The position numbers were made by a program, and so were the translations under genes. The notes under the pieces are model-generated. The model had not been told where the DNA came from. It made no database searches and saw nothing but the letters and a program-made list of their open reading frames with translations. DNA of 64,000 nt from Brachyspira murdochii DSM 12563 (lineage in GTDB: Bacteria > Spirochaetota > Brachyspiria > Brachyspirales > Brachyspiraceae), in assembly GCF_000092845.1 (NCBI RefSeq), contig NC_014150.1:2727510-2791509 (forward strand), read 5' to 3'. Position 1 is the first letter of the stretch. Each line of letters starts with the position of its first letter. Below are positions 7,388 to 48,891 of the stretch, in pieces.

Positions 7388-8716
7388 ATGGAACTTCAAT
7401 TAAGAAATATAGGAATGATAAAAGAAGCTGATATAGTATTAGATGGGCTTACTTTGATAGCAGGAGAAAATGATACGGGAAAAAGCACAGTAGGAAAGGC
7501 TTTATATGCTGTAGTTGCTGGGTTGAATAATGCTGAAAAAAACTATAAAGAATATGTTGAAGAAATAAAAATATATCCAATAACAAGAAATATAATAAGA
7601 AAATTAGAAAATGAGTTTATAAAAAAAATGAATGATAAAAACTCTTTGGTTAGAAAAAATAAATTAGATATTAATGATTTTCAAGAAAAAATAAATGAAA
7701 TAAGAAGATTTTTTAATTTTAATACAGATAATTTAGATAAATATTATTATGTATTTGAGGAATTTAAAAATTTACTTCAAACATATGATTTATACAACTG
7801 TATAGAAGAAGATATTCAAGAATATTTTAATATATTAATAAATAAACCAAATATTAATGAAATAAAACATTATAGTGTTAAACAGCATATATTAAATGAA
7901 TTAAAAAATAATATACAATCTTTTAATGCTGAAAAATCAAATATATCTATATTGGAAGATAATAATAAAATTATAAATATAGATATTATCAATAATCAAT
8001 TTAATGATGATGAATTGATAGGAAATGTATATGCATCTGACATAACATATATAGAAACTCCATTTATATTTAATATGATAGAAAATAATATTTTTTATTA
8101 TAAATTAAGAAACTATAAGGTTGATAATCATTTAGTAGATTTAGGAACAAAAATAATTGAAAATAGAAGAAAATATATAACAGACAATAATTATTTTCTT
8201 TTTGAAGAATTAAATAAAACAAAAAAATTATCAGATAGTATACAAAAAAATATAAATGGCTCTGTAGAATATGACAGAAGCAAAGATTTAATTTTATTTA
8301 AAAGAAATAATAACTATATAGAACTTTCAAATACTGCAGTTGGTATAAAATCTTTCGCTATAATAGATTTGCTGCTTAAATCTGGTATTTTTAATGATAA
8401 ACATATTTTGATACTTGATGAGCCTGAAGTACATTTGCATCCTAAATGGCAGATTGAATATGCTAAACTTATGGTTAAAATGGCTGAAGAATTGGATATA
8501 CAAATTTTAATAAATTCTCATAGTCCTTATTTTATAGAGGCTATACAAAAGTATTCTGAAAAGTCAGAAAAAATTGCTGATAAAACTAACTTTTATTTAA
8601 GTGAAAAACAAGATGATGGTTATGCTTTGATAAAAAATGTTAATGGTAATTTGAAATTAATATATGATACCTTATATGAAGCATATGATATTTTAGACAA
8701 GGATATGCTTAATTGA
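7388..8716 (+). CDS. AAA/ABC-type ATPase of the OLD-like (AAA_21) family, possible defence ATPase
   Basis: A 442-residue soluble ATPase related to SMC/RecF/OLD proteins. Walker A is GENDTGKST (residues 26-34). A long, variable, Asn/Lys-rich middle part follows. LSNTAVGIKSF (about 317-327) stands in the ABC-signature position, Walker B is ILILDEPEVHLHP (about 339-351), and INSHSPYFIEAI gives the switch His. There is no TOPRIM nuclease domain after the ATPase, unlike classical OLD. The neighbour 8720-9319 starts four bases after the stop-codon end and carries a nuclease-like motif. ATPase plus separate nuclease is the layout of defence pairs such as Septu, but the partner here is not an HNH protein. 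Function is inferred from family and context only. Confidence 0.8.
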   Translation: MELQLRNIGMIKEADIVLDGLTLIAGENDTGKSTVGKALYAVVAGLNNAEKNYKEYVEEIKIYPITRNIIRKLENEFIKKMNDKNSLVRKNKLDINDFQEKINEIRRFFNFNTDNLDKYYYVFEEFKNLLQTYDLYNCIEEDIQEYFNILINKPNINEIKHYSVKQHILNELKNNIQSFNAEKSNISILEDNNKIINIDIINNQFNDDELIGNVYASDITYIETPFIFNMIENNIFYYKLRNYKVDNHLVDLGTKIIENRRKYITDNNYFLFEELNKTKKLSDSIQKNINGSVEYDRSKDLILFKRNNNYIELSNTAVGIKSFAIIDLLLKSGIFNDKHILILDEPEVHLHPKWQIEYAKLMVKMAEELDIQILINSHSPYFIEAIQKYSEKSEKIADKTNFYLSEKQDDGYALIKNVNGNLKLIYDTLYEAYDILDKDMLN

Positions 8717-8719
8717 ATT

Positions 8720-9319
8720 ATGATTGATTATAATGAAATAAAAAGAAGATTAGAAAATAATTATAAAGATTGCTATAGCACTATAACAGAAATTTCTTCA
8801 GATAATAGAGATAAAAACAAAACAATATTATTTATTGTAAATAATAAAATATCGATTAACTTTGATGCGAAATTATCAAAAAAATTTAAATCTGAAAATG
8901 AGACTCAAGGAAATACTGAATTCAAATCTGTAGATATGCTGCATATAAAAAATGATACCATAGATTTAATTGAGTTTAAAAATATTACAAGTAAAAAAGA
9001 TAATTATTATAATAAATTAAAAGTTCAAGGAATAGAAAGTTTAATAGTATTATTTAAATTGTTAAAAAAAGAGAAGTTAATAGAAACATTTAATCAGTTA
9101 TTTGATTTTAATTTTATTAAAATCAATTACTATATAATAGTACCAGATGATTTATCACCAAATCAATATTCAGATAATAATAGAAATAGAAACAGATTGC
9201 AAAAAATATGTTTATTTTCAAGATTAGAAAGTGAGTACAGCGGTAAATTTTTTTATGATGTATCATCATATACGGCAAACTCATTTAATAAAAATTATAT
9301 TGATGTGTATATAAATTGA
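8720..9319 (+). CDS. Hypothetical protein with PD-(D/E)XK-like motif, partner of the ATPase
   Basis: I do not recognise a named family. The protein has 199 residues, no signal peptide and no membrane segment. Residues 67-87 contain a possible PD-(D/E)XK nuclease core: E67, then D72 in VDMLHI, then E85-x-K87 in IDLIEFKN, at the spacing expected for a beta-hairpin carrying D...ExK. The rest is Lys/Asn-rich with alternating strand and helix character. The ATG is three bases after the ATPase stop, so the two are almost certainly co-translated. The gene ends 15 bases before the convergent glycosyltransferase stop. A nuclease role is an inference from the motif and pairing; no known effector was matched. 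Confidence 0.65.
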   Translation: MIDYNEIKRRLENNYKDCYSTITEISSDNRDKNKTILFIVNNKISINFDAKLSKKFKSENETQGNTEFKSVDMLHIKNDTIDLIEFKNITSKKDNYYNKLKVQGIESLIVLFKLLKKEKLIETFNQLFDFNFIKINYYIIVPDDLSPNQYSDNNRNRNRLQKICLFSRLESEYSGKFFYDVSSYTANSFNKNYIDVYIN

Positions 9320-9334
9320 TCTAATATTTTATAA

Positions 9335-10417
9335 TCAGCATTTCTCAAAGTCTTCAAGAGTTTTTTTGAACTTTTCTAAATCTATAGAAAAATTATATCT
9401 ATCTCTATCCTTTATATTGTAAAAATAATGTATATTTTTAGGATTATCTTCTACATACTCAAAGTATTTCATCCCTTTTATATTGCATATATATCTATGA
9501 CAATCCTCATAACGTACATTAGCTACTATACCAAGTACAGAAGTTTTATCATCACAGCATACTATATTAGTTAATCCGCTTCCCAAAACAGATATTATTT
9601 TTTTAGCTTTATTAAATAAACAAAATTGTTCTGCTATAGAATAGTCTTCAGGATATATAACTTTATATCCCAAAGGTAGAAGTACATCAAGTAATTCTTT
9701 CTCATTTATAATATTTCTAGTTTTTACTTTTTTACGGCTTATATATACTTTATCATGAAATTCAATATTACATTTATTTAATAATCCTTCAGTAAACTCT
9801 AAAAACTTGTCGCATTCCCATTTAAAAGGTTTTGAAGGTACTAAACAAGGAAAAGAACTAAAAAATAAATGTTCGCATTCTATCTTTTTTTCATCTGGAA
9901 CATTAATAACATTTTTAACTCCGAATAATTCAAGACTTTCTTTATAAAATTTAGCTTTACAGCCTTCACTTATAATAAAATTATCTATTTTATCAAATAA
10001 TCCAGAATCTTTTAGTATAAATAATCTTGATAATATATCATGAACCCAATGTCCGTAATATTCCTGAGCCGCAGATTTTAAAGCAAAAATATTACCTTTA
10101 ATTCTAATTTTTCTGCGTAAATTAAAAAATAGAAATCTCCCTGATAACTGTGCACTAGGTTCTATCATATCATCATGTAAATTATCTTTTATCAATTTGT
10201 CATCTTTAGTAAATATGAATCCGCAGTCTGAATAAATTACAGCATTCTTTATAGAACATATATAATCAATTTTATTAGATGAGTTATATTGTATAGGTAT
10301 ATAATTTGTATATTCTGAATCTTTAGCATTAATTGATTTTTTTTTCAAATCGTCAGATATTTTTTTGGATAACTTATTTCTTATACTAGAATGCAATAAT
10401 TTATTAAATATAGGCAT
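9335..10417 (-). CDS. Glycosyltransferase family 61 (DUF563) protein
   Basis: Probably transfers sugars onto a surface glycan. Family marks are EYYGHWVHDILSRLFIL (residues about 115-131), the Arg/Asn block VYISRKKVKTRNIINEKEL (about 223-241), and the C-terminal IAEQFCLFNKAKKIISVLGSGLTNIVCC (about 260-287), matching the GT61 pattern of a Gln-rich helix followed by a GxGxxN loop. There is no signal peptide, so it should act in the cytoplasm. It has AGGAG six bases before its ATG. Upstream on the same strand lie a promoter (10710-10739) and a repeat-containing leader ORF (10558-10668), so expression may be phase variable. Confidence 0.82.
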   Translation of the reverse strand: MPIFNKLLHSSIRNKLSKKISDDLKKKSINAKDSEYTNYIPIQYNSSNKIDYICSIKNAVIYSDCGFIFTKDDKLIKDNLHDDMIEPSAQLSGRFLFFNLRRKIRIKGNIFALKSAAQEYYGHWVHDILSRLFILKDSGLFDKIDNFIISEGCKAKFYKESLELFGVKNVINVPDEKKIECEHLFFSSFPCLVPSKPFKWECDKFLEFTEGLLNKCNIEFHDKVYISRKKVKTRNIINEKELLDVLLPLGYKVIYPEDYSIAEQFCLFNKAKKIISVLGSGLTNIVCCDDKTSVLGIVANVRYEDCHRYICNIKGMKYFEYVEDNPKNIHYFYNIKDRDRYNFSIDLEKFKKTLEDFEKC

Positions 10418-10557
10418 TATTGCTCCTAAAGACTTTATTAAAACTTATTGAATTAAAAATACTGCTAAAAAAATATTTTATATAATTTTCTAACTTAATA
10501 TAATATTTTACAATTAGGTATTGTATGATATAAAAATTAATAATATAAGAAATTAAT

Positions 10558-10668
10558 TTATTTAGATGCGATGCGATGCGATGCGATGCGATGCGATGCG
10601 ATGCGATGCGATGCGATGCGATGCGATGCGATGCGATGCGATGCGATGCGATGCGATGCGATGAACAT
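10558..10668 (-). CDS. Small leader ORF made of five-base repeats, upstream of the glycosyltransferase
   Basis: Starts at ATG 10668, seven bases after an AGGA ribosome site (10676-10679) and downstream of the promoter at 10710-10739. It reads Met-Phe, then six copies of Ile-Ala-Ser-His-Arg and Ile-Ala-Ser-Lys, and stops at 10558-10560 (36 codons). The repeats are 19 ATCGC units plus ATC. One extra unit, or any change bringing the count to 2 mod 3, moves reading into a frame that stays open until TAA at 10404-10406, overlapping the glycosyltransferase start by 14 bases. The third frame stops at once. Whether it is translated is inference. Confidence 0.45.
   Translation of the reverse strand: MFIASHRIASHRIASHRIASHRIASHRIASHRIASK
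10565..10663. repeat. Pentanucleotide tandem repeat (GATGC, about 19.8 copies)
   Basis: 99 bases of perfect five-base repeat, with GATGC on the plus strand and ATCGC/GCATC on the minus strand. It stands out sharply from the AT-rich surroundings. It lies between the divergent glycosyltransferase (minus) and MATE exporter (plus). The unit length is not a multiple of three, so slipped-strand gains or losses shift any reading frame through it. Confidence 0.97.
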
Positions 10669-10709
10669 GTAAAAATCCTATATATTAATTATTTTTTAAG
10701 AATTATTTA

Positions 10710-10739
10710 ATAATATACATTAATTTGAAAAATTGTCAA
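10710..10739 (-). promoter_or_regulatory. Sigma-70 type promoter for leader ORF and glycosyltransferase
   Basis: On the minus strand TTGACA (10739-10734) and TATTAT (10715-10710) are separated by 18 bases. Transcription would start near 10703 and run through the ribosome site, leader ORF and repeat tract into the glycosyltransferase at 10417. This places the repeats inside the transcript. Confidence 0.6.
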
Positions 10740-12469: not shown

Positions 12470-14404
12470 ATGAATTACAATTTTTCTCTTATAACATTAG
12501 AATTAGGAATTCCAGTTATAGCAACTATTATATCTATTGTAGGTATAATATTATATGCTTATATATATTTTCAATTGTATGAAGAAACGCAGGCTATTAT
12601 ATTGTCTTTAGGTTTTTTATGTTTTGTATTTTCTGCTTTAGAAGCAATAAATATAATCATATCATTATATAGTCCTAATCACCCATTAACATTAAATTTA
12701 TATAAATTTGAGCAATTAGCCTTATCTCTTACTATTATCCCTTGGCTTGCCTACATAAGAACCCAGCTTACATTAAGTGAGAAATTTCATTTTGTATTAG
12801 ATAAGCTTTATATAGCAATTGTATTTATATTTATATTATTGTCTGCTATAGCCTTATTATATCCTCAGGCTTTTATATCTTCTAATAATCCTATAACTAC
12901 TTTAAATGATACTATGAAACACAGTATAAAAAGCAGAGGAGAGTTAGGTCCTGTATATGTTTTCAGAGATTTTATATTTACAATATATTGTTTTGTTATT
13001 ATATGTGCTTTTATATATGAAATGACTGTAAATAAAAAAGTTAAGAAAAATATACATTTTCTTGTTTTAATATCATTAATCTCTTTGGCATTTTTTGATG
13101 ATTTTAATGGCGTATCAATATATAGAGAATATTCAAGTAATTTTTTGTTTTTTTCAAATTTAACTTTTTCAAGAATCACATTAGTATATGCTGTATTTAA
13201 TGTTATAATGATATATTTTTCTGTAAGCAGATTTATTTCAGCGATACATAGGAAAACTACTCAGTCTTATGATTTGGAAAGCATAAAAGCTCAGGATTCT
13301 ATTATTATTAATACAGCAATAAACACTTCTGAAAAATTATCAGAACTAAAAGATAATTTTGCAGACTCTGTAAATAATTTGGTAAGCAGAGTTGAAAACA
13401 CATATTCAACAATTAATAATTTGAAAAATGATATAAATAAGGTTATAGAGTATACTAATGAATTTATAACTATAGAAAATTTCCAAATTAATGATGGCAA
13501 AATCAATGTAGATAAAATTAACGAATTAGTAGAGACTTATCCTAATTTGCAGATATCTGTAGAACTGCAGAAGAAAGCACTTGAAGAATCAAATTTAAAA
13601 CTTCAGGAATCTGTAGAAAAAATATATAAGCTTCAGGCAGAAAGCAGAGATACAGTGAGTTTATTTGAAGATTTCCAAAAAAAACTTGAAGAGGAAAAAA
13701 ATAATTTTATTAAAGAGTTTAGTAAATCAGAATCTTTTAATCAATTAAGTTTTCAAATTAATAGAATTATTTCTTTTATGACAAATATGTCTGATAAAAC
13801 TAAGACTCTTGCCATAAACTCAAGTATACAGGCTTCAAAGGCTGGAGAATGGTATAATAATTTTTCTGTTGTATCTAAAGAGGTAGCAGAATTAGTATTT
13901 GAAACTTCTGATGCTACAAATAATATGCAAAAATTATTGTTTCAAATAGAGGATATATTTAAAAAGTTTAATTATTCAAGCAATAATATTACTAATAATG
14001 TATCTTTGCTTATAGAAGAGATGAAAAATCATTATGACAGGCTTAATAAATTTAATAAAAATATGGAAAAACAAAATGATTACAATATGAATATAATAAA
14101 AAATACTGATAAGATGTATAATTCAATATCAAATATGACTAATATTATTATTAATGAAGAGAATGATTTTCTTAATATAAAAAGCAAGATAGAAGAAATT
14201 AATGCTTATATATTGGATATATCAGAAAAAGCTTCTATAGAAAATAATGAGGTAAAAAATCTTATGAGAGATATGAATAAATTATTGGCTACTTCTAATG
14301 ATTTAGAATCTGTTACTAGCAAACTTAATGAGGAGATGAAAAGATTCTTAGAATATACTAATGATTTAGAAGATAAGGTTGATGAATATTCTAAAGTAAT
14401 TTAA
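12470..14404 (+). CDS. Methyl-accepting-type receptor with 7TM N-terminus (first paralogue)
   Basis: 644 residues. The first about 260 hold seven hydrophobic segments, a 7TM sensor in place of the usual periplasmic loop. A long coiled-coil stretch follows (about 275-430, Glu/Lys/Asn-rich). Residues about 440-485 (SDKTKTLAINSSIQASKAGE and then FSVVSKEVAELVFETSDAT) match the chemoreceptor hairpin tip that binds CheA/CheW (family consensus ...TNLLALNAAIEAARAGE...FAVVADEVRKLAE), with several substitutions. There is no HAMP domain. It probably signals to the chemotaxis system from the inner membrane. The next gene, 12 bases on, is a paralogue. AGAGGA precedes the ATG. Confidence 0.78.
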   Translation: MNYNFSLITLELGIPVIATIISIVGIILYAYIYFQLYEETQAIILSLGFLCFVFSALEAINIIISLYSPNHPLTLNLYKFEQLALSLTIIPWLAYIRTQLTLSEKFHFVLDKLYIAIVFIFILLSAIALLYPQAFISSNNPITTLNDTMKHSIKSRGELGPVYVFRDFIFTIYCFVIICAFIYEMTVNKKVKKNIHFLVLISLISLAFFDDFNGVSIYREYSSNFLFFSNLTFSRITLVYAVFNVIMIYFSVSRFISAIHRKTTQSYDLESIKAQDSIIINTAINTSEKLSELKDNFADSVNNLVSRVENTYSTINNLKNDINKVIEYTNEFITIENFQINDGKINVDKINELVETYPNLQISVELQKKALEESNLKLQESVEKIYKLQAESRDTVSLFEDFQKKLEEEKNNFIKEFSKSESFNQLSFQINRIISFMTNMSDKTKTLAINSSIQASKAGEWYNNFSVVSKEVAELVFETSDATNNMQKLLFQIEDIFKKFNYSSNNITNNVSLLIEEMKNHYDRLNKFNKNMEKQNDYNMNIIKNTDKMYNSISNMTNIIINEENDFLNIKSKIEEINAYILDISEKASIENNEVKNLMRDMNKLLATSNDLESVTSKLNEEMKRFLEYTNDLEDKVDEYSKVI

Positions 14405-26304: not shown

Positions 26305-28368
26305 ATGATAAAAAAAGAAGTACAGCAATTATTTGAATTAGGAAAAAATGCTTTTAAAGAAAAAAGATATGAAGAGGCTATTTATAACTTAGAAAAGATA
26401 ATTGATATTTATAATAAAGATTTAGTTTTTTATTCTGATAATGAATATATTATTTATAATGAAGATGATACTGATAATATACATGCTCTTTTGGCTAATA
26501 CTTATTATAATATAGGAGCTTCCAAGCATAATCTTAAAAATTATAATGAGGCTATAGAATATTTTAATAAGACTTTAGAATTGGATTCTTCTTTTTTTGA
26601 TGTTTATTACAGTAGGGGAGTAGCTGAGTATCATTTGAAATTTTACGAAAATGCCGTTTCTGATTTTACTAAGGCTTTAGAAGTTAATCCTAATTTGCAG
26701 AATGCATATTATATAAGGGCTTTATGCTATGCTAAGATAAATAAACATAAAAAGGCTATTGAAGATTTTGATACATTGCTTAACAGTTTCGATGAAATAA
26801 ATTATATTTACTATTATTACAGAGGACTTTCAAAGTTTCATTTGAATTTATTTGAAGAAGCTGTAAAGGATTTTGATATTGCTGCCTACTATTTACCTAA
26901 TGAAGGATATATTTATTATGATAGGGCATTAAGTTATTCTAAATTAAATATGTTTGATAAGTCTATAAGAGATTATACAAAGGCTATAGAAATAAATAAA
27001 AATGAGATAGACGCTTATTATAATAGAGCTTCATCATACTGTGAAATAGAAGAATATTACAAGGCAATAGAAGATTATAATAAAGTTATAGAATTAAATC
27101 CTGATGATGATGAGGCTTATTATAATAGGGCTTTAACATACTCAAAAATAGAAGCATACGATAAGGCAATAGAAGATTATGATAAAGTTATAGAATTAAA
27201 TCATAATGATAAAGAAGCTGTTTATAATAGAGCTTTATGCAAACAGAGCGTGAATTTATTTGAAGAGGCAATAAAAGATTTTAATGCTATAATTAATTAT
27301 GATAATATATTTGTTTATTATAATTTGGGTATTTGTTATTTGGAATTAGAGAGATACGAAGAATCTGTTAATAATTTTGATCTATTTATAGAGGTTAATC
27401 CTGATTTTGCTGATGCATATTATTATAGAGGAAATGCCAAGTATGGTTTAGGATATTATGATGAGTCTATTGAAGATTATAATAAAACTTTGGAATTGGA
27501 TAATGTTTATATAGATGCTTATTATGAAAGGGCTAAGGTAAAAATTGAGCTTAGCATGTATGATGAAGCTATGAAAGATTTTGACGAAGCATTATTTTAT
27601 ATAGAATCAGATTCTGATAGAGCTTATTTATATACTTTGAAAGCAACTTTAAATGAAATATCAAAAAAATATGATGATGCTATAGAAAATTATACTAATG
27701 CTATAGAACTTGGAAATGAATGTTATTATAAAATGGCTATTGCCAAACATAATGCAGGATTAATAAAAGATGCTCTTAATGATTATAATAAGGCTATAGA
27801 ATTAGAACCTTATAATTATGAAATATATGGTTATAGGGGAAATGCTGAACTTGATTTATATTTATATAAAGAGGCTATCGAAGATTTTAATAAAGCTATA
27901 GAGTTAAATCCAAATTATGATGAGGCATATTATAATAGGGGTATTGCAAATGAGGCATTGAAAAATTATGATGAGGCTTTTAGAGATTATGAAACTACTG
28001 TGAAATTAAATCATAAACATGATTATGCTTTTAATAATTTGGGAAGCTGTTATGTAAAATTAAAAGAATATGACAAGGCATTAGAAAATTTTTATAAAGC
28101 ATTAGAAATAAATTCTGAACTTGCCATTCCTACTAACAATATAGGAGAGGTGAAATCAAGATTGGCTTTAAAAGAAAAAAACAATATAGAAAATTATAAT
28201 AAATTAAATAGTGAAGCATTAGAATATTTTAATAAATCATATCAAACAGCTTTAAAAAATAATGATGAATATGAAATAAATGCAATTATGGATAACATGA
28301 AAGAATTAGCCCTTGAAAATATAGATCCTGCAATAGAGTTCTTAAAAAATAATAATATTGATTATTAA
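26305..28368 (+). CDS. Long tetratricopeptide-repeat protein
   Basis: 687 residues, almost entirely TPR units of 34 residues with the pattern AYYNRA...Y.KAIEDY.KVIELNP (about 17 units between residues 60 and 640). There is no signal peptide or membrane segment, so it should be cytoplasmic. AGGA stands seven bases before the ATG. Neighbouring repeats around 27050-27230 are nearly identical at DNA level, so unit number may vary between strains. The stop overlaps the stop of the convergent DUF285-DUF4132 gene. The partner is unknown. Confidence 0.85.
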   Translation: MIKKEVQQLFELGKNAFKEKRYEEAIYNLEKIIDIYNKDLVFYSDNEYIIYNEDDTDNIHALLANTYYNIGASKHNLKNYNEAIEYFNKTLELDSSFFDVYYSRGVAEYHLKFYENAVSDFTKALEVNPNLQNAYYIRALCYAKINKHKKAIEDFDTLLNSFDEINYIYYYYRGLSKFHLNLFEEAVKDFDIAAYYLPNEGYIYYDRALSYSKLNMFDKSIRDYTKAIEINKNEIDAYYNRASSYCEIEEYYKAIEDYNKVIELNPDDDEAYYNRALTYSKIEAYDKAIEDYDKVIELNHNDKEAVYNRALCKQSVNLFEEAIKDFNAIINYDNIFVYYNLGICYLELERYEESVNNFDLFIEVNPDFADAYYYRGNAKYGLGYYDESIEDYNKTLELDNVYIDAYYERAKVKIELSMYDEAMKDFDEALFYIESDSDRAYLYTLKATLNEISKKYDDAIENYTNAIELGNECYYKMAIAKHNAGLIKDALNDYNKAIELEPYNYEIYGYRGNAELDLYLYKEAIEDFNKAIELNPNYDEAYYNRGIANEALKNYDEAFRDYETTVKLNHKHDYAFNNLGSCYVKLKEYDKALENFYKALEINSELAIPTNNIGEVKSRLALKEKNNIENYNKLNSEALEYFNKSYQTALKNNDEYEINAIMDNMKELALENIDPAIEFLKNNNIDY

Positions 28369-30734
28369 AACGTTTCTGTTAATCTTAAATCCCATATTAA
28401 GAGTATAAGCCAAGTATATATAAATCTGTTACTTGAATTATTGAACTCTATATTAATTTTTATTTTATCATTATAATTGGTTTCAGTATTGATAATTTTT
28501 GTTTTTATATAAAAATCTTGATTATTGTATGAATCTTTATAAGAATATCCGTTAATTTCATAATAACTTTTATGTTCCATATTCATATCATATCTTTGAG
28601 AAAATGCTTTTATTGTACCATAGCTTATTTCTATATTTTGTAATTTGTTTAACACTTCTTCTAAATTATTTATTTGTATATTTGTAAACTGCATTATCGG
28701 CTGTGATAATTCATAGTCTTCAAGCTGTTTTTTCCATTTTGATATAATACTCTTTTCCATTTCTATAGGGCTTGATAAACTTACAAAATAATTGTCATTT
28801 ATATTTACTGTATTATCATCGTAGTTTGTATAACTACCATCGTCTGAATATCTGAATGTTGTTATAAAATTATTATTTTCATCAAATAAATTCCAAACTA
28901 AATTAACAGCAAATTTATTCATTATTGGATTATCAATAAATACTTCTTTAAAAAAATTGAAATCATACTTTTTTCCTGTTAATAGAATTTTTATCAAATT
29001 TCTACTCTGATTTTTTATAATATTTGGAATTTCTTTTTTTATGTATTTAATTTCTTCTTTTATACTATCATCAAAGTTTTTAGGTATTTGTTTTAATATT
29101 TTATTTTCTTTAATATCAAAATAATCTATAGTATAATCATGTTTCAAAATTATTTTATATTGATTATTATTTATTATTTTCTCTCCGTTTCTATCAAATC
29201 CGAAATTTGGTATAGCTTTTAATCCGAATTCATAAACACTCAAATTATTTTCTTTTGCTATATCTTCAACAATTTTTTCTGTCATCTCTTTTACTTCAGA
29301 TTTTTTGCTTTTTTTGAACACATTATAAAGCATGTTAATAGCATATTTACTGTTTTTATTGATAGAAAATATAATCAAACATAATTTTGAATCTTTTTCT
29401 TTTTTGTAAATCTCTCTTAATGCTTCATCGCCTCCATATATTCCATAGATAATAGCTGAGGTTTCTTTGTTGGTGTTTATGTATATTGTTTTTATTGCAT
29501 TTATAAAAAATTTTTCATCAATTAAATTTATAATATAATCTATCTGTTTTATTCTGTAGGCTTCTCTTTTTAATTCTAAATATGATAAGTAAATATATTT
29601 TATTATTCTTTTATCTATATTTTCAATTTTTATATCATCTATAAATTGTACTTTTTTATCATCTTTTTTATTATAGTTTTTATCTATATAATTATAAACC
29701 TCTTCTATGCTATTAAAACTTTCAATATAATTTGGTATTAACTCTTTTAATTCATTATAAAAATTATTTATTAAATATCTTTTAAGAAAATTAACTTTTT
29801 TATTTTTATGATTTTCTATAATTTCATATATCTTTTTTACATTGTTTTTTATAAAATCATTTAAATTATTTTTTTCTTCTTTATCCAAAGTCAATGCATA
29901 TAAATAAGTCTTGAATTTAAAAGTTAATTCTAATGCAGAATCTTTATTAAAATTACTCATATCTGAAAGATTATCAATATTCCAATCATCTAAATTTTGA
30001 TTGAATGCTGATGTATTTGAAAACATACTTCCTGCATCTTTTAATTTTTTTGTATTCCAATTATTAATAGGTCTATTAAAATCTCTTGCAAACATAAACA
30101 TGCATCTCATATTAGTAACGTTACTTACATTCCAATTATTAAGAGACTGATTAAATGCATAAGCCAATGAAAACATACCAGACATCTCTTTCACTTTAGA
30201 AGTATTCCATTTAAATAAAGGCTGATTAAATTTATGAGCAGATGAAAACATATGATTCATATTTTCTACATTACTTACATTCCAGTCATTTATATTTTGA
30301 TTAAAACTTTCAGCACAATGAAACATATCGCTCATACTTTGAACTTTACCTACATTCCAATTATCAAGAGGCTGATTGAAACTTTTAGCATTCATGAACA
30401 TACTATTCATATTTATCACATTACTTACGTCCCAATCATTCAAAGGTTGATTAAATTTTTCAGCCAAGAAAAACATATAAGCTGTATTTTTTACTTTAGA
30501 AACATTCCATTTACTAATATCCTTATTAAAATTCCTATTAGCAGAAAACATACCAGCCATATTTTCTACATTAGAAGTGTCCCAATTCTCTATACCATCA
30601 TAATTATCTCTATTAAAAAAATCGAATAAGTTTGCCATATCAGTTATTAAGCTGGTATCAATATCACCTAAATAAATACTTTCATCTGTTATTAAATCTT
30701 TTAATTCTTTTTTGGAAGTAGGCTTGTATTTCAT
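28365..30734 (-). CDS. DUF285 repeat - DUF4132 fusion protein
   Basis: 789 residues. Residues about 30-270 contain nine repeats of about 25 residues of the DUF285/BspA type (MFxxAxxFNQPLxxWNVSNVxxM). From about 330 to the end the protein resembles DUF4132 (WGR/MolR-linked): NNLSVYEFGLKAIPNFGFDRNG, IPKNFDDSIKEEIKYIKKEI, MNKFAVNLVWNLFDENN and SKWKKQLEDYELSQPIMQF. There is no signal peptide, unlike surface BspA proteins, so it is probably cytoplasmic. It is last in a series with mtaB, DUF262 and SUKH genes (gaps of 22-32 bases). Function is unknown. Confidence 0.72.
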   Translation of the reverse strand: MKYKPTSKKELKDLITDESIYLGDIDTSLITDMANLFDFFNRDNYDGIENWDTSNVENMAGMFSANRNFNKDISKWNVSKVKNTAYMFFLAEKFNQPLNDWDVSNVINMNSMFMNAKSFNQPLDNWNVGKVQSMSDMFHCAESFNQNINDWNVSNVENMNHMFSSAHKFNQPLFKWNTSKVKEMSGMFSLAYAFNQSLNNWNVSNVTNMRCMFMFARDFNRPINNWNTKKLKDAGSMFSNTSAFNQNLDDWNIDNLSDMSNFNKDSALELTFKFKTYLYALTLDKEEKNNLNDFIKNNVKKIYEIIENHKNKKVNFLKRYLINNFYNELKELIPNYIESFNSIEEVYNYIDKNYNKKDDKKVQFIDDIKIENIDKRIIKYIYLSYLELKREAYRIKQIDYIINLIDEKFFINAIKTIYINTNKETSAIIYGIYGGDEALREIYKKEKDSKLCLIIFSINKNSKYAINMLYNVFKKSKKSEVKEMTEKIVEDIAKENNLSVYEFGLKAIPNFGFDRNGEKIINNNQYKIILKHDYTIDYFDIKENKILKQIPKNFDDSIKEEIKYIKKEIPNIIKNQSRNLIKILLTGKKYDFNFFKEVFIDNPIMNKFAVNLVWNLFDENNNFITTFRYSDDGSYTNYDDNTVNINDNYFVSLSSPIEMEKSIISKWKKQLEDYELSQPIMQFTNIQINNLEEVLNKLQNIEISYGTIKAFSQRYDMNMEHKSYYEINGYSYKDSYNNQDFYIKTKIINTETNYNDKIKINIEFNNSSNRFIYTWLILLIWDLRLTETF

Positions 30735-42325: not shown

Positions 42326-43564
42326 CTATTTAATATTAATAAATTCTATTACATAATGAGTTAATGCTTTATTAGGTGAAATATATTCATTACCTTGTAA
42401 TCCTCCCATTTTTGTTGCAACATCATAAAAGTATTGATTAACTTTATAATTAGCATCAGCTTTTATAGATTCATAGCAGGCTTGTTCTATTTCTGATTGA
42501 GGTTTGTCTGAAGCAACAGCAGCTAATGCTTTTGATAATGCATTTTGAGCTTCTGTTTTATATTTATTTATTTCTGTTTGTAATCCTGATTTAGTATATG
42601 CCCCTCCGCCATTACAATGTTCTACAAATCTGATTAAATAATCTTTACCGTCTTTTTTTACAGGCATTAACCATATTTGATGCGGAGATTGTTTTCCTAT
42701 CCATACATAATTTGTATCATTTTCAATATATTCTGTGGGGTTTATTCTAAAATCAGCAGCGGTTCCTGCTGAAGAGTTTATTCCTATATCAAACATATGA
42801 TGATTGTTAAAATCTTCTTCATTAAATGTGAACTTTGTTTCTAATCTTTGAGCTAACTGTTTCATTCTATCATCTAGCCTTTGTATACTGAATTGAAGTC
42901 CTCCTCCTGTGTAAACGTAAGTATAAGTTACACCGTTATCAGCAGTAATCTGCACTCTATTTAAATCTACAGCTTCCATTTTTGTAGTTCCTGCAGGCTG
43001 TGTAGTGCTTAATGTATCAGTCCAGCTTTTGAAGTCGGAAGTTTTAAAATAATTTCCTGCTGATGAGTCCTGCACATATACATATGTACCGTCTTGATAT
43101 GCATTTCCTTGAGATATTTTAGCTATCCTTGTATATTCATTATTATTTCTTCCTAGATTTATATTAACTTCTTTCATTTTGAAGTTATCATTAACATCTA
43201 TTTCCAATATATGACCATTGGGTTTTTCCATTAAATTATTATTAGCAATCCATATTACTTCATTATTATTATTGTAAGTATATTTATATGCTGCTGTAAG
43301 ATAGTAATGCCCGTTAAACTCAAAATAATGCTCAAAGTGTCCGTAAACTACTTTACCTCCAACAGGAGTATCTGTATTATTAATTGAAGATTCAATAGGC
43401 ATAACCTTAACTGTTGCATCTTTAGAAGGTATGCTCAAATTGGCTATTGGGTCTTCTACAAATTCTGTCATTGGAGGTATACTTGGATTAAATACATTTC
43501 TTCTGCAGGAAAAAGAAAATGAAATTAATAAGACAAAAGATATAATTATTGATATTTTATTCAT
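42326..43564 (-). CDS. Hypothetical lipoprotein
   Basis: 412 residues, not recognised. The signal peptide ends SFSFSC with Cys at about 20 and is followed by Arg-Arg, then a Pro-rich stretch. The middle contains strand-rich Gly/Asn/Tyr-rich repeats (VVYGHFEHYFEFNGHYYLTAAYKY, AYQDGTYVYVQDSSAG, YTYVYTGGGLQFSIQRLDD) and the end is helical (EINKYKTEAQNALSKALAAVASDKPQ). It is probably surface exposed. Upstream on the same strand lie a promoter and the AACAG-repeat leader ORF, one frame of which ends in an ATGA overlap with this start. Confidence 0.72.
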   Translation of the reverse strand: MNKISIIISFVLLISFSFSCRRNVFNPSIPPMTEFVEDPIANLSIPSKDATVKVMPIESSINNTDTPVGGKVVYGHFEHYFEFNGHYYLTAAYKYTYNNNNEVIWIANNNLMEKPNGHILEIDVNDNFKMKEVNINLGRNNNEYTRIAKISQGNAYQDGTYVYVQDSSAGNYFKTSDFKSWTDTLSTTQPAGTTKMEAVDLNRVQITADNGVTYTYVYTGGGLQFSIQRLDDRMKQLAQRLETKFTFNEEDFNNHHMFDIGINSSAGTAADFRINPTEYIENDTNYVWIGKQSPHQIWLMPVKKDGKDYLIRFVEHCNGGGAYTKSGLQTEINKYKTEAQNALSKALAAVASDKPQSEIEQACYESIKADANYKVNQYFYDVATKMGGLQGNEYISPNKALTHYVIEFINIK

Positions 43565-43730
43565 AAATAATATTCTCCTAATATTTTTTTATATTTAATT
43601 TTTTTTGAAAAATACTTTAATACTGATGCAATAACATAGATATTATGCTTTATATTTTTTATATTTATTATATTTTTTAATTTTTGTTTTTGATAAGATT
43701 TTTTGCAATGACTATATAGAAAAGAATTTA

Positions 43731-43811
43731 TTAATGAATATATAAAATTTGGAGTATTATCTGTTCTGTTCTGTTCTGTTCTGTTCTGTTCTGTTCTGTT
43801 CTGTTCTTCAT
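43731..43811 (-). CDS. Small leader ORF with AACAG repeats, upstream of lipoprotein
   Basis: Starts at ATG 43811, 15 bases after AGGAG (43827-43831). It reads Met-Lys, then three copies of Asn-Arg-Thr-Glu-Gln (nine AACAG units), then nine more codons to TAA at 43731-43733. With 8 or 11 units (2 mod 3) the frame would instead stay open for about 65 codons after the repeats and end in TGA at 43561-43563, overlapping the lipoprotein ATG as ATGA. With 10 units it stops at the repeat edge. The ribosome-site spacing is long, so translation is unproven. Confidence 0.4.
   Translation of the reverse strand: MKNRTEQNRTEQNRTEQIILQILYIH
43761..43805. repeat. Pentanucleotide tandem repeat (CTGTT, nine copies)
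   Basis: Nine perfect CTGTT units (AACAG on the minus strand), 45 bases. It lies 196 bases upstream of the lipoprotein start, in the 401-base gap between that gene and queH. The unit length is not a multiple of three. Confidence 0.97.
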
Positions 43812-43850: not shown

Positions 43851-43878
43851 ATCATATCATAATTTTAAATATTTTCAA
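43851..43878 (-). promoter_or_regulatory. Promoter for leader ORF and lipoprotein
   Basis: Minus-strand TTGAAA (43878-43873), 16-base spacer, TATGAT (43856-43851). The predicted start near 43844 lies before the AGGAG and the repeat ORF, so the repeats would be in the transcript. Confidence 0.5.
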
Positions 43879-48039: not shown

Positions 48040-48891
48040 ATGAGAAAACTTGCACTATTAATTTTTATATTTATTATATCTGTAAGCTATGCATATTCGT
48101 TTTCATTAAATGAATTAACTGCAAAGTTTGATGTAGACAGAGCAAACAGACTTATGAGAAAAGGAGATTATGAGGGTGCTGTAAGTTTGTATGAAAAGGC
48201 TTTAAGCAAAGTACCTAATTCTCCGGAAATATTTTATAACATGGGTACTACTATGTCTTCTATTGGTGAATTGGACAGTGCATTACAGTTATTTGATATG
48301 GCTAAAAAAAGTGCTGCAGAAAATACAAGCAAAGATATAAAAAGTGCTATTTATTATAATTCTGGAATAACAAAGATAGAAGGGCAGGATTATCAAGGTG
48401 CTATAGATGAATTAGTAGAATCGCTCGTTAATACTCCAAATGATAATAATGCAAAAAGGGCTTTAGAATATGCTTATAAAAAATTAGAAGAACAGCAGAA
48501 TCAAAATAATACAGGTCCTAGCAGTCAGCAGAATAATGAACAAAATCAAAGCGGTCAGAGTGATGATAATAATGGAAGCTCTGGCGATAATGATGAGAAT
48601 AATCAAAACAATGATAATCAGGGAAATCAAAACAATCAGAATAATCAGAACGATCAAAACAACAATGATAATCAAAATAATCAGGACAACCAAAACAATA
48701 ATGATAATCAAGACAATCAAAGCAGCAATAATAATCAGGATAATCAGAACAATAATAACAACAGCAATAATGATAATGAGGAAAGTAAATCTGATATTGA
48801 CAGGCTGCTCGAATCTTTAAGACAGCTTAGAAAAGATAAAGACAATGGAGATCAGTATTATGGCGGAGGAAGAATTGACAAAGATTGGTAA
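48040..48891 (+). CDS. batC: BatC: TPR protein with Asn/Gln-rich low-complexity tail
   Basis: 283 residues. Signal peptide, then three TPR units (about 30-150: ANRLMRKGDYEGAVSLYEKALSKVPNSPEIFYNMGTTMSS and following). Residues about 152-245 are almost entirely Asn, Gln and Asp, encoded by imperfect repeats of AAT/CAA/GAT codons. The end (DIDRLLESLRQLRKDKD...YGGGRIDKDW) matches the conserved C-terminal end of BatC proteins. It overlaps batD. Confidence 0.8.
   Translation: MRKLALLIFIFIISVSYAYSFSLNELTAKFDVDRANRLMRKGDYEGAVSLYEKALSKVPNSPEIFYNMGTTMSSIGELDSALQLFDMAKKSAAENTSKDIKSAIYYNSGITKIEGQDYQGAIDELVESLVNTPNDNNAKRALEYAYKKLEEQQNQNNTGPSSQQNNEQNQSGQSDDNNGSSGDNDENNQNNDNQGNQNNQNNQNDQNNNDNQNNQDNQNNNDNQDNQSSNNNQDNQNNNNNSNNDNEESKSDIDRLLESLRQLRKDKDNGDQYYGGGRIDKDW

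Follow-up and report, generated by a model that had tools for sequence, protein, structure and literature searches.

The question raised by this locus is whether a long pentanucleotide repeat, placed in a small leader ORF and not in the gene that follows, can act as a phase switch for a glycosyltransferase gene. We addressed it by a comparative analysis of a 64,000-nucleotide stretch of Brachyspira murdochii DSM 12563 (the window), of the genome that contains it (a single contig of 3,241,804 bases) and of 26 genomes of the genus.

Anatomy of the repeat-bearing leaders

All elements of the locus lie on the minus strand of the window. The promoter (10710-10739) can be read as TTGACA-18-TATTAT or as TTGACA-16-TATATT ending at 10712, both matching the consensus in 11 of 12 positions. 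It precedes a Shine-Dalgarno (SD) sequence AGGA (10676-10679), which stands 7 nt before the leader start codon (ATG 10668), a spacing found unchanged in the orthologous loci L003 and L005. Next comes the tract, (ATCGC)19 plus ATC (10565-10662), with 19 perfect units; its TRF score of 198 at 100% identity, compared with mostly 40-70 for arrays of the AT-rich background, is far beyond chance. The downstream gene (9335-10417, ATG 10417) begins 147 nt from the tract, is preceded by its own SD sequence AGGAG (10423-10427) and encodes a 360-aa family-61 glycosyltransferase (GT61; PF04577 Glyco_transf_61, E 9.6e-27). An earlier note on this DNA had described the promoter, the AGGA, the start codon and the tract correctly to the base, and the Pfam match confirms the family that it had named.

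The length of the leader depends on the repeat count. At the present 19 units (1 mod 3) it comprises 36 codons plus a stop that ends at 10558 (10558-10668). At counts divisible by three it stops directly after the tract, following 33 codons (n=18) or 38 codons (n=21). Only at 2 mod 3 does it remain open through its continuation (10404-10564), giving 84, 89 or 94 codons for n=17, 20 or 23; it then crosses the glycosyltransferase SD sequence and meets a stop codon at 10406-10404, which lies 14 nt inside the gene. These three outcomes, obtained by frame arithmetic and, for the continuation, also borne out by orthologues and codon-position substitutions, are those that the earlier note had predicted. 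The open leader frame differs from that of the glycosyltransferase. An in-frame fusion of leader and glycosyltransferase is excluded, since the in-frame phase (0 mod 3) halts right behind the tract, and a promoter-spacing switch is excluded by the position of the tract, ~48 nt downstream of the -10 box. Several properties of contingency loci are met by this tract: it is long and perfect, its period is not divisible by three, and its count makes the leader frame complete or truncated. One property is lacking: neither the switched gene's own ORF nor its promoter contains the tract, which instead occupies a distinct leader ORF further downstream than the promoter.

The window contains another tract of this leader design, not listed in the earlier note, beside an unrelated gene and also on the minus strand. 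Here a promoter-like TTGAAA-16-TATGAT with an extended -10 (43851-43878, 10/12 consensus) precedes a leader with ATG 43811 and the tract (AACAG)9 plus A (43760-43805), as identified by a repeat scan and frame arithmetic. At the present count of 9 this leader has 26 codons and a stop at 43731, and at 2 mod 3 it extends over 81 or 86 codons (43561-43811), so that its TGA overlaps the next ATG (ATGA). The downstream gene (42326-43564) encodes a lipoprotein-like protein of 412 aa without a Pfam match, relatives of which carry tract leaders at L031 and L035. The leader also contains a recurring sequence, CATTGCAA (43703-43710), to which no role is assigned. The hallmark of a coupled gene pair, an upstream stop near the downstream start, is present at both loci in one of the three phases (+14 at the first tract, ATGA at the second). 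No intrinsic terminator or terminator-like hairpin was found in either window leader, and the criterion for an attenuator is not met.

We consider it probable, with real room for doubt, that the first tract is a slippage-driven phase switch acting via the leader ORF through translational coupling, and not via the gene's own frame. The sigma-70 promoter upstream of the tract would give one mRNA with the leader and the glycosyltransferase gene, and ribosomes would initiate at the leader ATG and translate the ATCGC tract. At two of three repeat counts they would halt at or just past the tract, leaving the ~140-nt spacer untranslated and the glycosyltransferase poorly translated (OFF, the present state). 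At 2 mod 3 they would cross the spacer, the SD sequence and the start of the glycosyltransferase gene, end 14 nt inside it, open the start region and restart on the gene (ON); this phase would perhaps also keep Rho off the leader. The leader ORF would serve as a track for ribosomes, its peptide having no conserved sequence. The coupling, the direction (open = ON) and the switching within populations are inferred, as there are no expression, transcript or population data. The glycosyltransferase has a good SD sequence of its own, and its translation independently of the leader is possible, which would speak against a switch by coupling.

The reading frame kept in family-61 relatives

Relatives of the GT61 gene were identified in 14 of the 26 genomes, the closest orthologue being that of B. 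innocens ATCC 29796 (93% identical). Five orthologues, including the window gene, possess a tract leader (ATCGC x19, x13 and x16; AACGC x10 and x10). In all five, exactly one phase crosses the glycosyltransferase start and stops 14-17 nt inside the gene, with spacers of ~97-198 nt. A paralogue (L017) has a 7-mer tract, (CCGTCAA)11, likewise with one phase crossing the start; it is open if read from its GTG (or an upstream ATG), and no other GT61 relative is read as ON, the other five tract-bearing genes being closed. The orthologues, compared between species, differ in copy number (19/13/16/10/10). At one locus where two species share 95.8% identity over 3 kb, the tract has 8.8 vs 7.8 units.

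A promoter upstream of the tract is retained in the orthologous loci L003, L005, L008 and L009. Among the tract-free genes, the B. pilosicoli gene (L007) has a promoter directly before it and two others (L004, L006) are located behind another gene; the leader is thus an add-on, and the gene itself does not need it. At L024, a similar promoter is followed by a spacer without a tract, and the glycosyltransferase gene is broken.

Even orthologues do not share a conserved leader peptide. Substitutions in the leaders of orthologous or duplicated pairs are distributed over the codon positions as 6/7/5, 13/12/11, 7/6/6 and 15/16/11, and this equality indicates that only the open frame is kept; it also excludes a conserved regulatory peptide. 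Random placement of the observed substitutions often introduces a stop; with the 42 substitutions of a duplicated pair with a 7-mer tract, the frame stayed open in 2-8% of trials. Since the longest frame was by definition taken as the ON frame, this simulation is supportive and not an independent proof.

Repeat tracts across the genome and the genus

A census of 1.264 Mb, ~39% of the B. murdochii genome, yielded 23 tracts, of period 5 (13 tracts), 7 (nine) and 4 (one); no tracts of periods 2, 3, 6 or 8-12 were found in this sample. By placement, nine belong to a leader ORF, five to the 5' portion of a long ORF, the position familiar from classical phase variation, and eight to the 3' ends of upstream genes; the remaining one is a short AT-only run. 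This distribution, with 22 of 23 tracts at sites where frame matters, argues against neutral microsatellites without a regulatory role; the absence of functional data leaves room for that reading, to which we give the least credence of all. Pattern scans for two composition classes detected pentanucleotide tracts in 20/26 and 23/26 genomes of the genus. The genes downstream are largely surface-related (GT2, GT8, GT61, MBOAT, polysaccharide enzymes and lipoproteins).

The tracts in the 5' part of ORFs are those at 462965, 408666, 559988, 1674464 and 624204. The only 4-mer of the sample, (AAAC)34 at 462965 (L126), stands directly behind the ATG and has one phase in frame with the long ORF; judged by its frames, it is a classical in-ORF switch. 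The open leader at 624204 shares the frame of its gene.

All nine leader-type tracts of the census have one phase stopping -1 to +37 nt from the gene start. At 69754, the relevant start is a TGATG overlap, which is in frame with, but upstream of, a start with a better SD sequence. As a control, we took 123 tract-free genes of the same genome, opened three frames at an equal upstream distance and scored stops near the start; for the genus-wide statistic, one locus was drawn per gene cluster and cases in the wrong orientation were retained. A stop at -5..+20 is found in 10.3 of 31 gene clusters vs 2.05 expected (p ~1e-5), and a stop at -40..+30 in 20.1 of 31 vs 8.1 expected (p ~8e-7), with the caveat that gene starts were picked by SD score. 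ATGA ends are also frequent in the tract-free control genes once the frame is open, which leaves no more than a modest to moderate excess of exact overlap over openness as such. The exceptions in the genus are L068 and L050, which have no phase near the gene, L055, which ends at -59, and L038, which ends at +71.

A tract could also act by its length or through RNA structure, with the open frame being incidental, and repeats in untranslated regions that tune expression through their length do exist in other bacteria. Against this, open phases end at gene starts far more often than in tract-free genes, the open phase is kept in the GT61 orthologues despite varying length and sequence of the spacer, and nearly all periods are 5 or 7, neither of which is divisible by three. 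The tract is, moreover, downstream of the promoter and leaves its spacing unaltered, and we regard an effect without the reading frame as quite improbable.

Promoters occupy the position that a switch via the leader ORF would require. Upstream of the tract, the best match reaches 10-12/12 consensus at 34 of 38 leader loci; in the spacer after the tract, such a match is seen at only 4 of 38. The leader starts form two classes, one with an SD sequence and ATG, as in the GT61 leader, and one with an ATG 6-9 nt past a -10 box. An ATG at this distance from a near-consensus -10 is seen at 13355, 69754, 1693531, 1766437 and 624204, as well as at L031, L033, L035, L042 and L048, and these loci probably give leaderless mRNAs in Brachyspira. 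Either class would place the tract within translated RNA. Predicted accessibility of the SD region is lower for the downstream genes than for tract-free ones (0.32 vs 0.43, p 0.002), which would fit a need for ribosome-driven opening, although this is suggestive only. The inference of the earlier note, a repeat-driven switch through the leader ORF, is therefore supported by evidence that is comparative only: the crossing phase in five of five orthologues and the 7-mer paralogue, the recurrence of the design before unrelated genes genus-wide, well above tract-free genes, the frame kept without its peptide, the promoters upstream of the tracts, and copy numbers that differ between close relatives.

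In the assembly, all nine leader tracts of the B. murdochii genome are closed (OFF if open = ON), and the lack of an ON allele among them counts against the proposed switch. The probability of this by chance is 2.6%; laboratory growth may thus favour OFF. A strong OFF bias is known for autB of Neisseria (PMC5118866). The same nine 'short' leaders would also suit the opposite sign, in which ribosomes crossing in the open phase block initiation on the glycosyltransferase gene and short leaders are ON. Geometry alone leaves the sign unfixed, and the gene has its own SD sequence. However, the stops lie at distances suitable for reinitiation (ATGA, TGATG, TAATG and +14), the open leader at 624204 is in frame with its gene, and the open phase of the tracts at gene 3' ends would disrupt terminators and so favour downstream expression. 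We consider the opposite sign improbable.

The eight tracts at gene 3' ends are all pentamers (145564-174158, 1677374 and 1681350; L084, L085, L100 and L101), several of them in a polysaccharide cluster. At most of these, translation in one phase ends ahead of an intrinsic terminator and leaves it free, and in another phase it enters the first arm or traverses the entire hairpin in the direction of the next gene, which suggests repeat-controlled antitermination. This geometry may be taken as a hint that the passage of ribosomes matters for transcription too. It bears on Rho-dependent polarity, a rival or companion of coupling, by which an early leader stop would let Rho load on untranslated RNA and end transcription before the glycosyltransferase gene, while ribosomes of the open phase shield the leader. 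Rho is encoded in the genome, the RNA of the tracts is A/C-rich (A41 C33 G15 T10 over 17 distinct sense-strand units) and unstructured, and shielding would remain effective where an open phase ends 10-40 nt short of the gene, as some do; the open phase at the 3'-end tracts mostly runs into or through the intrinsic terminator. On the other hand, the spacer of the GT61 leader is merely ~140 nt, the two window leaders lack a terminator-like hairpin, and the clustering of stops on the start codon is somewhat stronger than polarity would call for. As the sole explanation polarity is unlikely, yet it cannot be dismissed beside translational coupling.

The sequence CATTGCAA recurs 30-110 nt past the tract in leaders, in differing reading frames. 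It is present in the leaders at 69754, 79775, 647894, 1693531 and 1705486 of the B. murdochii genome, at L017, L032, L034, L038, L046 and L047, and in the second leader of the window. Seven of its nine intergenic sites in the 1.264 Mb are within 36-177 nt of one of the 23 tracts. The GT61 leader of the window lacks it.

A wider proposal, which we hold with no more than even confidence, is that Brachyspira possesses a genome-wide set of switches based on 5- and 7-base repeats, situated either in a dispensable, often leaderless, leader ORF or in the 3'-terminal part of the preceding gene. Slippage would set the passage of ribosomes over the spacer, and sometimes over a terminator, to the gene beyond; selection would act on the leader only to maintain one open phase, and many leaders would share CATTGCAA. 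This principle would be undescribed in these bacteria.

Relation to known systems

The small lex2A lies directly upstream of lex2B. In Haemophilus influenzae, lex2A carries tetranucleotide repeats and lex2B is a lipooligosaccharide glycosyltransferase gene (PMC3116884). This pair is the closest precedent, since in both cases a tandem repeat is located in an upstream reading frame beside a glycosyltransferase gene. The earlier note had recognised no other leader ORF with repeats coupled to a gene, a remark that must be softened in view of this older case. The differences are that lex2A/lex2B has a unit of 4 at one locus, whereas Brachyspira has units of 5 or 7 in a genus-wide series of unrelated genes.

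Haemophilus mod is a classical in-ORF contingency locus. In Neisseria autA/autB, AAGC repeats follow the start codon (PMC5118866). Such loci share with the leaders described here slippage tracts with a period not divisible by three, near a start codon and before surface genes, and the B. murdochii genome has loci of this type as well (the AAAC tract at 462965, and 559988, 1674464 and 408666). Unlike these, the leader tract does not belong to the ORF of the switched gene, and switching would pass via the end of the leader ORF. With translationally coupled pairs the open leaders share their ends (ATGA at the second tract, TGATG at 69754, 14 nt inside the gene at the first), but only one of the three repeat phases creates the overlap. 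As in regulatory uORFs and attenuators of the mgtA and topAI type, translation of a short leader ORF would set downstream expression; here, however, a heritable repeat count would take the place of a metabolite or antibiotic as the signal, and the two window leaders have no terminator. In Helicobacter pylori tlpB, a variable G-repeat in the mRNA leader is the target of the RepG sRNA and, as far as the part of the source available to us goes, does not act through the frame of a leader ORF (PMC8295292).

As read from the genomes, the design is real, conserved and genus-wide, and is a variant of the contingency locus with the tract outside the gene's ORF and promoter, its effect on expression and its switching being inferred. 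Our search found no literature on Brachyspira that deals with pentanucleotides, or with phase variation together with tandem repeats, although this is weak evidence because subscription papers were outside the search. Judged by title, none of the publications found on phase variation in Brachyspira treats repeat switches there, and a 2025 review of phase variation mentions neither coupling, upstream ORFs, spirochaetes nor lex2. VNTR typing exists for B. hyodysenteriae.

Brachyspira includes gut pathogens of pigs and birds. If our interpretation is true, the genus has a large repertoire of phase-variable surface genes that has escaped description until now, and standard screens for repeats within a gene's own ORF would miss most of it, since the switched gene looks intact. 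The loci would also form a natural series for the study of translational coupling, with many unrelated genes and three near-identical alleles of each, one repeat apart. It can be speculated that such switching could help to explain antigenic variety and uneven results of vaccines and serotyping.

Other repeats in the window are of different types. Asn/Gln-rich repeats at 48586-48771 on the plus strand, in ORF 48040-48891, have lengths of 27-63 bases, each divisible by three. Degenerate repeats of 75/150 bases are found at 30088-30513 in an ORF for a repeat protein (28365-30734, minus strand). Beside the GT61 gene, the plus strand (7388-9319) encodes an AAA-family ATPase (AAA_15/AAA_21, with an OLD/AbiEii-like Pfam match) followed directly by a 199-aa protein without a Pfam match, possibly a two-gene defence module.
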